A stretch of 34,139 nucleotides of DNA from Deltaproteobacteria bacterium (lineage in GTDB: Bacteria > Desulfobacterota > Syntrophia > Syntrophales > UBA2210): the NCBI GenBank assembly GCA_016933215.1, contig JAFGBH010000010.1, positions 1-34,139 of the forward strand. Direction: 5' to 3'. Below, in pieces: positions 22,402 through 29,726 of this stretch; within the stretch, counting starts at the first letter, position 1; each line of letters opens with the position of its first letter. Below the pieces are notes generated by a model. It made no database searches, was not told where the DNA came from, and saw nothing but the letters and a program-made list of their open reading frames with translations. The position numbers and the translations under genes are program-made.

Positions 22402-23898
22402 ATGGAAAAGATAAACAAAAAAAGAGAGTCACTGATAGATGAGTTGAAAGAGGCGCGCAGAAAAATAGCCGAATATGAAGGGGCCCTGAAAGATCGCGAA
22501 ATAGAGGAGGGTTTTTACAGCGCCCTTGAGAATATTGTTCGTGCCGGGATCTATATCGTACAGGATGGAAAATTCAGGTTTGTCAATCATTATGCATCAA
22601 AATTTCTCGGTTATGCCAGAGAAGATATTGTCGGTCAAAATTCTATAGACTTCGTGCACCCGGATGATCGCGAGATGGTGATCGGAAATGCAAAGAAGAT
22701 GTTGTCCGGGGAGCGTCATTCGTCCTATGAATTCAGGTCAATTGCAGAGGATGGAAGCATTCACTGGATTGAGGAAATCGTGAGGCCCACGCAGTATGAA
22801 GGGAAGGCGGCCGTTCTCGGTAATATAATGGAGGTGACGGAGAGGGTAGAATCGAGGGAGAAACAGAAGGAACTCGAAACTCTCGAAGCATCGATTCTTG
22901 CTGCAATTCCCCACGCAGTCATTGGGTTGAAAGACAGGCGAATTATCTTTGCCAACGATGGTGTCCAGACAGTCTTCGGGTGGAAAGAGGAGGAATTGAT
23001 AGGGAAGAGTACGAGGATTCTCTACCGCACGGAAGAGGATTACCAAAAGATGGCCGGCCTCTATTCGAGACTGAAGCGGCAAAAAACGGTACTGACGGAG
23101 TTTCCCTGCAGGCGAATGGACGGAACTGATATCGAATGCATGGTGAGTGCCTCGAGAATAGGAGAGAGTCTTACAAAAAGAAATATCGTTATTACCTATG
23201 AAGACATTACGGAACGTGAAAAGGCCAAAAACGAACTTGAACAGTCGAGAGAACAGCTCCGAAACCTCTACACCCACCTTCAATCGGTTCGCGAGAAAGA
23301 GCGCACGAGGATAGCAAGAGAGCTTCATGACGAACTTGGACAACTGCTCACGGCACTGAATACTGACCTTATCATGCTGCAGAGGAAGATTCCTGACAAA
23401 GAGGTGGCGCTTCTCGAAAAAACAGATGCAATGGTGAAGCTTATCGATATGACGATGAACACCCTGAAGCGCATATATATGGATCTCCGCCCGGGCATGC
23501 TGGATCACCTGGGTCTCGTAGCCGCAATCAGGTGGCAGATAGAGGAGTTCAGAAAACGTTCAAATATAGGGTGCACTATTATTGCCGAGCCTGATGAGAT
23601 TTCACTTGACGTCGAACTTTCAACGACTGTTTTTCGCATTTTTCAGGAAACACTTACCAACATATTACGACATGCGGAAGCGACGAAGGTAAATGTAAGG
23701 CTGAAGAAAACCAAAAAATATGTCGATCTTATCGTTCGGGACGACGGTAAAGGCATACGGGATGAGGAGCTCACGAAGACGAATTCATTCGGCCTCATTG
23801 GGATTCGAGAACGGGCCATTGCCCTTGGAGGAACAGCCGAAATATCGGGAGAAAAAGGGAGAGGCACAGCGGTAAAGGTCCGTATCCCTCTGACATAA
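22402..23898 (+). CDS. Soluble PAS-domain sensor histidine kinase (NarL-type, HisKA_3)
   Basis: A 498-residue kinase with no membrane segment or signal peptide, so it senses a cytoplasmic cue. It begins with a short coiled coil (to about residue 35), then two PAS domains (about 40-150 and 160-275; the first has the FVHPDDRE and DGSIHWIEE marks). A second coiled coil leads into a HisKA_3 dimerisation domain with phosphoacceptor H309 in RIARELHDELGQLL. The HATPase_c domain has FQETLTNILRHA (N box), DDGKG and GLIGIRERA. It forms a two-gene unit with the response regulator 14 bases downstream. The signal is not predictable: no haem, flavin or Cys cluster signature is visible by eye. Confidence 0.94.
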   Translation: MEKINKKRESLIDELKEARRKIAEYEGALKDREIEEGFYSALENIVRAGIYIVQDGKFRFVNHYASKFLGYAREDIVGQNSIDFVHPDDREMVIGNAKKMLSGERHSSYEFRSIAEDGSIHWIEEIVRPTQYEGKAAVLGNIMEVTERVESREKQKELETLEASILAAIPHAVIGLKDRRIIFANDGVQTVFGWKEEELIGKSTRILYRTEEDYQKMAGLYSRLKRQKTVLTEFPCRRMDGTDIECMVSASRIGESLTKRNIVITYEDITEREKAKNELEQSREQLRNLYTHLQSVREKERTRIARELHDELGQLLTALNTDLIMLQRKIPDKEVALLEKTDAMVKLIDMTMNTLKRIYMDLRPGMLDHLGLVAAIRWQIEEFRKRSNIGCTIIAEPDEISLDVELSTTVFRIFQETLTNILRHAEATKVNVRLKKTKKYVDLIVRDDGKGIRDEELTKTNSFGLIGIRERAIALGGTAEISGEKGRGTAVKVRIPLT

Positions 23899-23912: not shown

Positions 23913-24551
23913 ATGAAGAAAATAGAGATACTGATTGCCGATGATCATCCGATTGTGCGGGAGGGATTTAAACAGGTCATTTCAGAAACCGATGACATGA
24001 TAGTGGCTGACGAGGCGAGTAATGGACAGGAGGTTTTGGCCCTCGTGAGAAAACGGGAATATGATCTGATACTTCTCGATATATCAATGCCGGGAAGAAG
24101 CGGTCTCGAGGTCTTAAAAGAATTGAAAAGTGAATATCAAAAGCTTCCGGTTCTCATACTGAGTATCTATCCTGAAGAACAGTATGCGGTGAGGGCCTTC
24201 AGGGCAGGCGCATCGGGATATCTGACGAAGGCGAGTGCGCCGAATGAACTGATTTCGGCAATCAGAAAGATAGTTCATGGAGGGAGATACGTCAGTGAGT
24301 CCCTTGCGGAAAAACTTACCTATTATCTCGATGAGGATGTCTCGAAGCCTCTTCACGATTTGCTTTCGGATCGTGAATATCAGGTTATGCTGATGTTGGG
24401 TTCGGGAAAAACGGTGAAAGAAGTCGCCGAAATATTGTTCCTCAGTGTAAAAACGATCAGTACTTACAGGTCACACATACTCGAAAAAATGAAGATGAAA
24501 AACAATGCGGAGATTACACTCTATGTGGTAAAAAACAAACTGATCGATTAG
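23913..24551 (+). CDS. NarL/FixJ-type response regulator
   Basis: The 212-residue partner of the preceding kinase. Receiver domain at about 1-120 with the acidic pair D10/D11, phosphoacceptor D56 (LLDISMPG) and the conserved Lys in GYLTKAS. The LuxR-type helix-turn-helix lies at about 145-208 (LSDREYQVMLMLGSGKTVKEVAE, then SVKTISTYRSHILEKM). A good AAGGAGA lies before ATG 23913. It probably binds DNA when phosphorylated. The closest downstream genes on the strand are the 60-residue protein and the dehydrogenase, which makes them candidate targets by position only. Confidence 0.95.
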   Translation: MKKIEILIADDHPIVREGFKQVISETDDMIVADEASNGQEVLALVRKREYDLILLDISMPGRSGLEVLKELKSEYQKLPVLILSIYPEEQYAVRAFRAGASGYLTKASAPNELISAIRKIVHGGRYVSESLAEKLTYYLDEDVSKPLHDLLSDREYQVMLMLGSGKTVKEVAEILFLSVKTISTYRSHILEKMKMKNNAEITLYVVKNKLID

Positions 24552-24700
24552 GACATTACCCTATACTGTCATTACCGTCTGTCTTATAACCTACCGCTAT
24601 AATTTCTTAGCGGAACCACCCCATCATCCTACACAATAATCAGACCTATGCCGATTGCCTCTCCTGTGATTGAGCATTAAACTATCTCTGTCGAAAAACC

Positions 24701-24744: not shown

Positions 24745-24927
24745 ATGGAGGCGAGAAGAAACAGAAAAGGTAATGCTGAAAAAATGGTACGTGACGATGC
24801 ATTATGGCAGGATCCTATGTCCTATCCTGCATACGACAGAGAAAGCCTGCTGGAGAGGGCGGCAACGGGTCGTAAAGAATCCGAGAATAATTCTATAGAT
24901 ATTACCGCCGGCAGAGTTGCTGCCTGA
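24745..24927 (+). CDS. Small protein (60 aa) sharing the dehydrogenase tail motif
   Basis: I do not recognise a family. The ATG has a good ribosome binding site (AGGGAG, seven bases away), and an in-frame stop lies just upstream at 24724. The protein is very charged with no membrane segment. Residues 21-32, WQDPMSYPAYDR, closely match WGDPMSFPVYDR (residues 317-328) in the C-terminal tail of the dehydrogenase 106 bases downstream, and the five residues before the motif are also similar (VRDDALW against IKEDEFW). Either it is a free-standing copy of that tail with a role in assembly or regulation, or it is the remnant of a lost dehydrogenase gene. The ribosome binding site and own start favour a real gene. 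Confidence 0.6.
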   Translation: MEARRNRKGNAEKMVRDDALWQDPMSYPAYDRESLLERAATGRKESENNSIDITAGRVAA

Positions 24928-25032
24928 GGGCATTTAGTAACGGAATAAATAGCAATCAACCTTTATGGATAATTATATTCTTAACTCTGCGCGGATATAA
25001 AGGTCGATTAGTTTAAAAAGGTAATAGATTAG

Positions 25033-26097
25033 ATGGATGAGATACAAAAAGTAGCGGTTATTGGTACGGGGGTCATCGGTGCCGCGTGGGTGACGCTCTT
25101 TGCCATAAAAGGATACGACGTTACGGCATATTCAAGGAAAAGAGAAACAAGAGAAAAAGGACTTGAAAATGTGCGTTCAAACCTCGACTTTTTTGTGAAG
25201 AAGAGGATGATATCAGAGGCCGATAGTGAGCAGGCATTTGCAAGGATAACAATGGTTGAGGCATTGTCTGAGGCAGTGAGAAATGCCGATTTTGTTGAGG
25301 AATGCACGGGAGAAAATTACGATATAAAAAAGAGTATTTTTAGTGAAATTGGAAAATATGCACCACCCCATGCCATTCTTGCAAGCAGCACGTCGGGTCT
25401 CAGTATGTCTGAAATTCAACAGGTCGTGACACAAAAAGATAAATGTATCACGACACATCCATGGAATCCTCCGCATTTAATCCCTCTTATAGAGATAGTC
25501 CCCGGTAAGGACACGTCAAAAGAGACAACGGATACAGCCTATTCATTCATGGAACATCTCGGAAAGGTTCCTGTCATCGTCAGAAAAGAGGTTGCGGGAT
25601 TTATTGGAAACAGATTGGCGGCCGCGCTATGGCGTGAAGCAATCGATCTCGTTGACAGGGGCGTTGCGACGGTTGAAGATGTTGATAAGGCGATTCACGC
25701 AGGTCCCGGAATCAGATGGGCGCTTATGGGAACTCATATGACCTATCATCTCGGAGGGGGAGAAGAGGGCGGGTACTCTCACTTTATCGAGGGTATCGGT
25801 AACACGACATTCAAGACAATATGGGAAGAACTCGAAACAAGAAATCACATAAGTGATCTGGTAAAGAATAAATTAAACCAAGGCATGAAAGAAGCAATAA
25901 AGGGGAAATCCTTTCAGGATATAGTACGATGGAGGGATGATAAGATCGTTGACATCCTGTCAATAAAAGAAGACGAGTTCTGGGGTGATCCGATGAGTTT
26001 CCCTGTTTATGACAGGAAAAACATAGCACAGAATAAAGATAAAGAAGATCAGAAGAAACCTGCAGAGGTACGAAAGATAAAGGAACACGTAGCATAA
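25033..26097 (+). CDS. 3-hydroxyacyl-CoA dehydrogenase-type enzyme (carnitine dehydrogenase/CRYL1-like)
   Basis: A 354-residue NAD-dependent 3-hydroxy acid dehydrogenase. The Rossmann motif GTGVIG is at residues 11-16, the NAD-binding domain ends in ASSTSGLSMSEI, and the catalytic His sits in the TTHPWNPPHLIPLIEIVPG run. The C-terminal domain follows (GFIGNRLAAALWREAIDL; GPGIRWALMGTHMTYHL). The HPWNPP and GPGIRWA segments recall L-carnitine dehydrogenase and CRYL1 more than classic FadB-type enzymes, so the substrate could be a free or CoA-bound 3-hydroxy acid. Beyond the core it has a polar tail of about 40 residues with WGDPMSFPVYDR at 317-328. It meets trmFO tail to tail with 10 bases between. 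Confidence 0.88.
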   Translation: MDEIQKVAVIGTGVIGAAWVTLFAIKGYDVTAYSRKRETREKGLENVRSNLDFFVKKRMISEADSEQAFARITMVEALSEAVRNADFVEECTGENYDIKKSIFSEIGKYAPPHAILASSTSGLSMSEIQQVVTQKDKCITTHPWNPPHLIPLIEIVPGKDTSKETTDTAYSFMEHLGKVPVIVRKEVAGFIGNRLAAALWREAIDLVDRGVATVEDVDKAIHAGPGIRWALMGTHMTYHLGGGEEGGYSHFIEGIGNTTFKTIWEELETRNHISDLVKNKLNQGMKEAIKGKSFQDIVRWRDDKIVDILSIKEDEFWGDPMSFPVYDRKNIAQNKDKEDQKKPAEVRKIKEHVA

Positions 26098-27483: not shown

Positions 27484-29726
27484 TCAGCGACCTTCTCTGT
27501 AACCACATTCTTTGTTCGGACAGGCTTTAACGGCGCCTTTCCCCCGGTAATATTTTTCTACCAGAAAAGGGTGGCCGCACTGGGGGCATTCTTCCGGCAG
27601 AGGTTTGTCCCAGAGGGCATAGGAACAATCGGGATATCGTGAACAGCCGTAAAAGATCTTTCCTTTTCTTGTCCTCCTTTCGCAGAGGCTTCCCCCGCAA
27701 CCCGCCTCCGGGCACTTGATGCCCGTATCGAGGGGTTTTGTATTCTTACAGTCGGGATAACCGGAGCATCCAAGGAATCTCCCGAATCGGCCCTCCTTGA
27801 TCGCCATATTCTTGCCGCAGAGATCGCAGATTATATCCGTCACCTCTTCCGAAGCCGTCCCGATTTCACCATTCGAATCGGTGGCAATGTTGGCGGTGTT
27901 CTTACATTCCGGATAGTTAGAGCAGGCGAGAAACTTTCCGTTCCTTCCCCATTTTATCACCATGGGGCTTCCGCACTTGTCGCAGGTGATTTCCGTCGGT
28001 GTTTCTTCCCTCTTTACGTTTCTCATCTGCTCCTTTGCTGCTTCAAGGTCCGGTGCAAATGTTGTGTAAAAATCTCTCAGTGTTTTATCTCTGGTAAGTT
28101 TGCCCTCCTCAATGAGGTCCAGCTTGTCCTCCATGGAGGCCGTAAATTTCACGTCGAAGACATGGGAGAAGTTTTTTACAAGGAGTTCATTTACCAGTTC
28201 TCCCATCTCCGTGGGATGAAATCTCCCTTTCTCAAGTTTCGCGTATTCTCTATTCTGGATGGTGCTTAATATAGCGGCGTAGGTGCTTGGTCTTCCAAGG
28301 CCCTTTTCTTCCAACTCCCTGACCAGTGTGGCCTCGGAAAATCTCGGGGGGGGTTGGGTGAAGTTCTGCTCAGGCGTAAGGGAAAGCAACTTGAGCCCTT
28401 CGCCCTCAGATATCTCGGGAAGTACCTTTTCAGCCCCATTCTCTTCACCATTTTCTTCTTTGCTTTCCGTGTACAGAATGGTATGCCCCGGCGATTTCAT
28501 GATTGCCCCCTTCGTATTGAAGAGGTAGCTGCCTGCCGTTATGTCTATAGTTGTCTGATCGAAAAGTGCGGGATTCATCTGGCTTGCAACAAATCGGTTC
28601 CATATGAGCTGGTAGAGGCGATACTCGTCATTTCCCAGGTAGCTCTTGATATCCTCAGGTTTGTAGGCAATGGAGGCGGGACGTATCGCCTCGTGGGCGT
28701 CCTGAGATTTTTTGGGTGATTTAAATACCCGTGCCTTTTCAGGAAGAAAATCCCTTCCGTATTGTTTCAGGATGTACTCACGTGCCTCGTCGAGTGCTTC
28801 CGATGCAATTCTAAAAGAATCTGTTCTCATATAGGTTATGAGTCCTACGGAACCCTCATCGCCGATAACTATTCCCTCATAGAGCTTCTGGGCTGTCCGC
28901 ATGGTCTTGTTGGCGGAGAAACGAAACCTTCTCGATGCCTCCTGCTGGAGCTTGCTGGTGGTAAATGCCGGAGGGGCAAATCGCTTTACCTCCTTCTTTT
29001 CCACCTTGCTGACAATAAAGGGCGTATCCTTCAGGTTTTCAATAAGCTCTTCAGCCTGACCTCCGTTCTCTATCTTTGCCTTTTTGGAATTGATCTTTAC
29101 GAGGCGTGCCTCAAAGGAAGGTGGATTATGGCCCTTAAGCAGGGCTGTAATATTCCAGAATTCTTCCTCCGTGAAATTTCGAATCTCTTCTTCTCTTTCA
29201 CAGATAATTCGGACCGCCACGGTCTGAACACGACCGGCGCTCAACCCTCTTCGTACCTTGTCCCATAAAATGGGGCTCACCTGGTATCCCACAAGCCGGT
29301 CGAGAATTCTCCGGGTCTGCTGGGCCTCGTACTTTTCCGGATCGAGTTTCTGGGGATTTTTATGGCAGAAAGTACCGTGTTTTTTGTCAGGTCATTAAAA
29401 AGAACACGATAGAGGGCCTTGTCTCCGGATGCGATCTCTTGAGCGACGTGCCACGCGATGGCCTCTCCCTCGCGGTCAGGGTCGGGAGCGAGATAGATGT
29501 TGTCGGCCTTTTTTGCGGCTTTTTTCAATTCAGATATAACCTTCCGCTTTTCTTTTATGATCTCGTAGGCCGGCTCAAAGTCCTTTTCTATATCGATACC
29601 AAGCTTACTCTTCGGAAGATCCTTGACGTGACCCAGGGATGCCTTCACTTCAAATTCGGAACCGAGGTACTTCTTTATTGTCTTTATCTTTGTGGGTGAT
29701 TCAACGATAATAAGTGAACCTGACAT
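27484..29726 (-). CDS. topA: DNA topoisomerase I, interrupted by a one-base frameshift
   Basis: TopA relaxes negative supercoils. The TOPRIM part (MSGSLIIVESPTKIKTIKKY; DPDREGEAIAWH) is read from ATG 29726, but its frame runs on to a premature end near 29277. From about 29357 the expected sequence NPQKLDPEKYEAQQTRR continues in the next frame and runs through ITYMRTDS with the catalytic Tyr and C-terminal Cys4 zinc fingers to 27484. The switch is at an A5 run (T5 on plus, 29357-29361); one more A would restore 747 residues in one frame. An error in a homopolymer is most likely. A true mutation, or slippage on the A-run, is possible. As topA is normally essential, full-length protein is probably made. 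Confidence 0.93.

Follow-up and report, generated by a model that had tools for sequence, protein, structure and literature searches.

The 60-residue open reading frame (ORF) next to a dehydrogenase gene in a 34,139-nucleotide stretch of a Syntrophales genome (the window) probably belongs to a regulon of micro-proteins that share a docking motif, one copy of which has been fused to the co-regulated dehydrogenase. Comparative sequence analysis gives good support to two parts of this reading, namely that the 60-aa protein is a member of an undescribed family of very small proteins and that these proteins form a regulon of micro-protein arrays. The motif carried by the neighbouring dehydrogenase points to a putative docking tag that would work with the enzyme or its partner. 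Our evidence is computational and consists of the family and its arrays, the selection acting on them, a shared promoter, co-location and co-occurrence with a regulator, and a derived enzyme tail.

Results

A conserved micro-protein gene shares its motif with the adjacent dehydrogenase

The first-pass annotation had noticed a common motif in the small protein and the dehydrogenase (Table 1), encoded by differing DNA and lying, in the enzyme, beyond the catalytic core; each of these observations was borne out. The two copies, WQDPMSYPAYDR and WGDPMSFPVYDR, are identical at 9 of 12 residues and at 23 of 36 bases, with the consensus W-x-D-P-M-S-[YF]-P-x-Y-D-R, and the final Pfam domain match in the dehydrogenase stops at residue 261, ahead of the tail. 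Chance likeness could be ruled out: 200 shuffled versions of the small protein all fell short of 9/12 against the dehydrogenase, blastx of the intergenic DNA against the enzyme gave E = 6e-7 over the motif, and a genome-wide comparison gave the small protein just one further significant match, the dehydrogenase tail (E = 2.5e-4).

Orthologues of the small protein occupy the same place in two other genomes, G002 (69% identity) and G011 (49-50%). The small gene thus adjoins the tailed dehydrogenase in 3/3 genomes that have this enzyme, in an identical kinase, regulator, small gene, dehydrogenase order, and was found neither absent nor frameshifted where the tailed enzyme is kept; its absence or frameshift there is what the first-pass annotation had named as refuting its proposal. 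Among the three genomes, the small gene has dN of 0.17-0.42 and dS of 0.87-2.1 (dN/dS about 0.2-0.3), which indicates that the ORF is a real gene under purifying selection. Four other groups of small proteins gave pN of 0.09-0.13 vs pS of 0.36-0.52. The small protein of the window could be modelled with low confidence only (mean pLDDT 61).

Table 1. Features of the micro-protein locus, in window coordinates.
Feature	Position	Strand	Basis or remark
PAS-PAS-HisKA_3-HATPase sensor histidine kinase, proposed regulon sensor	22402..23898	+	Pfam PAS, HisKA_3, HATPase_c; orthologue beside regulator elsewhere
NarL/LuxR-type response regulator, proposed array regulator	23913..24551	+	Pfam Response_reg, GerE
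Possible upstream operator copy (weak), ATTAGGAC-ATTAC-CCTATAC	24547..24566	+	By eye only
Putative operator/-35 region, AATCAGAC-CTATG-CCGATTG	24638..24657	+	Same box before arrays and dehydrogenase operon elsewhere
-10-like AACTATCT and conserved leader start GTCGAAAAAC	24680..24699	+	Aligned with TTATCTTAG..TCGAAAG of f3 and f117 arrays
60-aa W-x-D-P-M micro-protein ORF	24745..24927	+	ATG start, AAGGAAAGGGAGTG upstream
Small-protein motif WQDPMSYPAYDR, residues 21-32	24805..24840	+	
Dehydrogenase, 354 aa	25033..26097	+	
3-hydroxyacyl-CoA / L-carnitine / lambda-crystallin-type dehydrogenase core, residues 1-311	25033..25965	+	Pfam; PDB 3f3s/3ado; confident N-terminal domain in model
C-terminal tail, residues 312-354, apparent fused small-protein family member	25966..26094	+	Missing from tailless homologues; low pLDDT; purifying selection
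Dehydrogenase-tail motif WGDPMSFPVYDR, residues 317-328	25981..26016	+	

Elsewhere in the window, topA (DNA topoisomerase I) is read in two overlapping frames on the minus strand (27484-29292 and 29277-29726), as by frameshift or assembly error.

The dehydrogenase tail is a derived addition

The enzyme core belongs to the 3-hydroxyacyl-CoA dehydrogenase superfamily (Pfam 3HCDH_N, PF02737, 192.5 bits vs 22; 3HCDH, PF00725, 51.9 vs 22.1). It scores below the cut-offs of the L-carnitine dehydrogenase equivalogs (NF005471, 238.2 vs 414; NF005716, 236 vs 592) and below every NCBIfam equivalog cut-off shown, its best models including PRK06129 and PRK07066. In these domains, and in its matches to PDB 3f3s and 3ado, the core resembles enzymes of the L-carnitine dehydrogenase / lambda-crystallin (L-gulonate 3-dehydrogenase) type; what sets it apart is the disordered W-x-D-P-M tail, unmatched in the order's homologues outside the three tailed genomes.

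Homologues collected at E <= 1e-40 from genomes of the window's order end in common at about residue 311-325 of the window enzyme, and outside the tailed genomes their matches reach no farther than about residue 311-322. The tail could be aligned in 3 of the 48 genomes with a homologue, all of them genomes where the small gene adjoins the enzyme, and the tailless homologues that were read through to their end have 314-336 residues and no motif. Because 45/48 homologue-bearing genomes have no tail, we read it as a derived fusion of one copy of the small-protein motif, a reading that the comparison supports well. An alignment of tail and small protein can be drawn through their full length, last residues included, but is strong in the motif only. 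The tail is itself under purifying selection, and an AlphaFold2 model gives a confident NAD-binding domain but pLDDT below 50 for residues 323-354, as expected if the tail is an exposed flexible segment. The first-pass idea of a free-standing peptide that has its own ribosome binding site and shares a docking-type motif with the enzyme therefore holds up, given its conservation beside the tailed enzyme and the selection on it, but not the direction then proposed, a tail that had become detached: the small proteins are widespread and the tail is rare. G002 also has a second, tailless dehydrogenase, convergent to a gene resembling a beta-keto acid cleavage enzyme, as in carnitine degradation (L034:747-2738).

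W-x-D-P-M micro-proteins form a family encoded mostly in tandem arrays

The entry point to the family was a weak match in a same-order genome: at this locus several short ORFs stand in a row, all of them with W-x-D-P. A phylum-wide search with the single sequence yielded the first tandem array (L018), which is real, and a second locus (L017) that reads as a chance match. A first profile, built from ten motif regions and searched in 155 genomes of the order, gave many more members, and a wider profile placed members in 21 of the 155 genomes, across 8 genera, with as many as 13 hits in a single genome. Reading of the loci gave a catalogue of 96 small ORFs. The family so defined comprises proteins of 22-60 aa with W-x-D-P-M-x-x-P and a variable, mostly Lys/Arg-rich N-terminus, and as members we counted short ORFs that have a ribosome binding site, this motif and a significant match to profile A4. 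The window ORF matches A4 at E 9.1e-9 (37.2 bits), in a profile that includes its G002 and G011 orthologues. Divergent members adjoin the regulator in family f2 (EWIDPTCTP, EWCDPTCTP) and in f122 (FWCDPSNYP).

Most members lie in tandem, as arrays of 2-4 different short ORFs with mainly ATG starts and AGGAG-type ribosome binding sites; the window's own family, f1, has instead a lone free small gene and the fused tail. In many arrays the first ORF is a small one of a second kind (type A), which carries EFNPQRDILGK or DPRINLMGE and has no Pfam match, and the array-opening ORF of f122 ends in YYSKKIVQFH (examples of the two kinds are at L150:5796, L153:6532, L077:5870 and L205, about 2790). Among 395 genomes drawn evenly from the phylum, clear hits were confined to this order; f35 gave weak long-ORF hits. 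Several hits to the exact motif pattern in 395 genomes were set aside as chance, for example one in G148 that overlaps other coding sequence in a different frame. The micro-proteins had no accepted family match in Pfam, NCBIfam, PHROGs or PDB profiles, and literature searches with the motif strings and the topic found no match.

When array neighbours were clustered, the dehydrogenase adjoined the small genes in f1 and, more loosely, in f2, most arrays having other neighbours. A 91-aa membrane protein and a 79-83-aa AtpZ/AtpI-like membrane protein recur near arrays in f3 and G494 (L081, L082, L083, L150, L159, L066).

Arrays share a promoter and co-occur with a two-component system

The DNA upstream of arrays is conserved in f3, f117 and f5 as [CT][CT]GATT[GT], 31-33 bases and CGAAAG, and at the array loci 29/29 such promoter sites precede a small ORF by a few bases. 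A stricter pattern found 24 exact sites in 13 whole genomes, 23 of them upstream of small-protein ORFs, against 1 for the control. A looser pattern found 53 sites in 669 kb of loci vs 1 for the reversed-pattern control, a count that is not a genome-wide rate because the loci had been picked for arrays or regulator; 34 of the 53 are concentrated in the stretches just before W-x-D-P ORFs, which make up 2.6% of the sequence. This promoter is also present in the window: the element at 24638-24699 runs AATCAGACCTATGCCGATTG, then AACTATCT and GTCGAAAA, with CGAAA 41 bases past the start of CCGATTG. With up to 2 mismatches, the operator pattern has one match in the window vs a chance mean of 0.16, but the PWM was built with the window box among its sources, so the window operator score is not independent and the pattern test is likewise limited. 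Searched at one mismatch in the window's own genome, the operator gave 14 hits, 9 of them inside genes, and the only exact site was the window's. One of the one-mismatch sites (L247, G000:C52:4652, minus strand), which precedes an acyl-CoA dehydrogenase gene by about 174 bases, may be chance.

The weak upstream box in the window has the same relative place as the CATCAGAC-AAACA-CCGATGG boxes of f2 and f109. In four genomes (G437, G438, G463, G414), a double operator, CATCAGAC-N5-C[CT]GATGG / AATCAGAC-N5-CCGATTG, precedes an operon for a zinc-ribbon-like protein, a tailless dehydrogenase and CoA-transferases, 3-5 kb from the regulator. This same-operator operon occurs in two families other than the window's, which would make the dehydrogenase a member of this apparent regulon also in its tailless form. 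The zinc-ribbon-like protein at the head of the operon has about 120 aa (L202:1118-1477, L201, L199, L200).

The sole neighbour that recurs across families is the pair of PAS kinase and NarL-type regulator, which adjoins small ORFs in f1, f117 and f5. The window regulator is of NarL/LuxR type (receiver, 112.3 bits; GerE helix-turn-helix, 63.5 bits; both above the gathering score). An orthologue with at least 69% identity is present in 18/21 family-positive vs 17/134 family-negative genomes (Fisher p 3e-11, ignoring kinship of the genomes), the three positive exceptions being G482 (59%) and G531 and G347 (not among the matches listed). Four 'negative' genomes (G521, G522, G523, G436), which were left out of PWM building, carry the operator immediately 3' of the regulator gene; in G521 the box is followed by an ORF with FWCDPSNYP. 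Since most arrays lie far from the regulator gene, we infer that control by the window regulator would be exerted in trans.

Discussion

A proposed docking tag under two-component control

We propose that the PAS kinase and NarL-type regulator act on the dyad (A/C)ATCAGAC-N5-CCGAT(T/G)G, placed both at the promoter and farther upstream, and would thereby switch on the tandem micro-protein arrays and, in some families, the dehydrogenase and CoA-transferase operon. The motif may be a short linear docking tag, and the variable N-termini could give each micro-protein a second role of its own, which the basic ones could supply. In the window lineage, a copy of the tag would have become the C-terminal tail of the co-regulated dehydrogenase, which would let the enzyme share a binding partner with the small proteins, whether alongside them or as their competitor. 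Counting against this picture, the dehydrogenase neighbours small genes in few families, most arrays lie far from the regulator gene, three family-positive genomes have no close regulator orthologue among the matches listed and 17 family-negative genomes do have one.

With its PAS histidine kinase, Response_reg-GerE regulator and putative dyad operator near the promoter, the window pair resembles other NarL/LuxR two-component systems, from which it differs in its apparent targets, tandem arrays of an undescribed micro-protein family. MgrB, SafA and similar proteins are small members of regulons or connectors between two-component systems. The likeness to them lies in tiny proteins placed under a sensor-kinase system and probably acting by binding a larger protein; here, however, each array has 2-4 different soluble members, a genome may have as many as 13 hits, and the motif is also found fused to an enzyme.

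Alternative readings

The small proteins could instead be basic effectors of a stress or dormancy regulon, with RNA, DNA or the ribosome as their binding target, the motif being structural or used for self-association and the tail giving the dehydrogenase the same localisation. The very Lys/Arg-rich N-termini of most members, the production of several different members together and sensor-kinase control would all suit such effectors, but the dehydrogenase tail has the motif and lacks the basic N-terminal part, the small protein of the window carries mixed charges and there is no match to a known nucleic-acid-binding family; we consider this reading unlikely.

Regulatory leader peptides, in which ribosome stalling on W-x-D-P-M-x-x-P would control downstream genes, are an improbable explanation. 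The ORFs are indeed short and promoter-proximal, with conserved W, D and P residues. Yet there are 2-4 different ORFs per row, neighbour clustering found no constant downstream gene behind the arrays, and the residues past the motif are conserved within groups. The motif also stands at the end of a 354-aa enzyme, and it is this fusion with a co-regulated enzyme that argues most strongly for a role at the protein level.

Still less probable is that the ORFs encode precursors of a modified or exported product, a RiPP or a signal, as the tandem arrangement of the short ORFs, their variable N-termini and their conserved core might suggest. Two members do match the cyanobactin PatC/TenC/TruC model (TIGR04447), with a weak local likeness around FRRGGIW, but below threshold (best E 0.001; one member at 15.5 bits vs a cut-off of 30) and with D-P-M uncovered; the window protein had no hit to this model. 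Cyanobactin genes were not seen next to the arrays, none of the neighbours that recur across families in the clustering is a modifying enzyme, protease or exporter, and the motif is retained on an enzyme of cytosolic type.

That the small ORF is a decayed copy of the dehydrogenase tail, the remnant of a lost paralogue that the first-pass annotation had offered as its alternative, would account for the common 12-residue motif but is ruled out by the tailless homologues, tailless being the common state of the enzyme, and by blastx of the intergenic DNA, which gave nothing significant for a dehydrogenase core upstream of the small ORF, and is further opposed by the purifying selection on this ORF and by dozens of family members without any dehydrogenase.

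Implications

The docking-tag regulon that we favour adds a micro-protein family that lies outside Pfam, NCBIfam and PHROGs, many members of which have fewer than 40 residues and are therefore easily missed by gene callers; the promoter signature offers a route to further members, and the natural fusion names a first candidate partner. Its regulatory half, the two-component system and operator, is of an ordinary kind, whereas for the tandem micro-protein half we found no counterpart. More tentatively, a dedicated two-component system and rows of docking-tagged micro-proteins, with the tag transplanted onto a co-regulated enzyme, might amount to a modular plug system that assembles or tunes 3-hydroxy-acid/acyl-CoA metabolism in syntrophic bacteria. 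Most of the hosts are uncultured anaerobes and probably syntrophs; little is known of their regulation, and this makes the sensor and its regulon directly testable targets.
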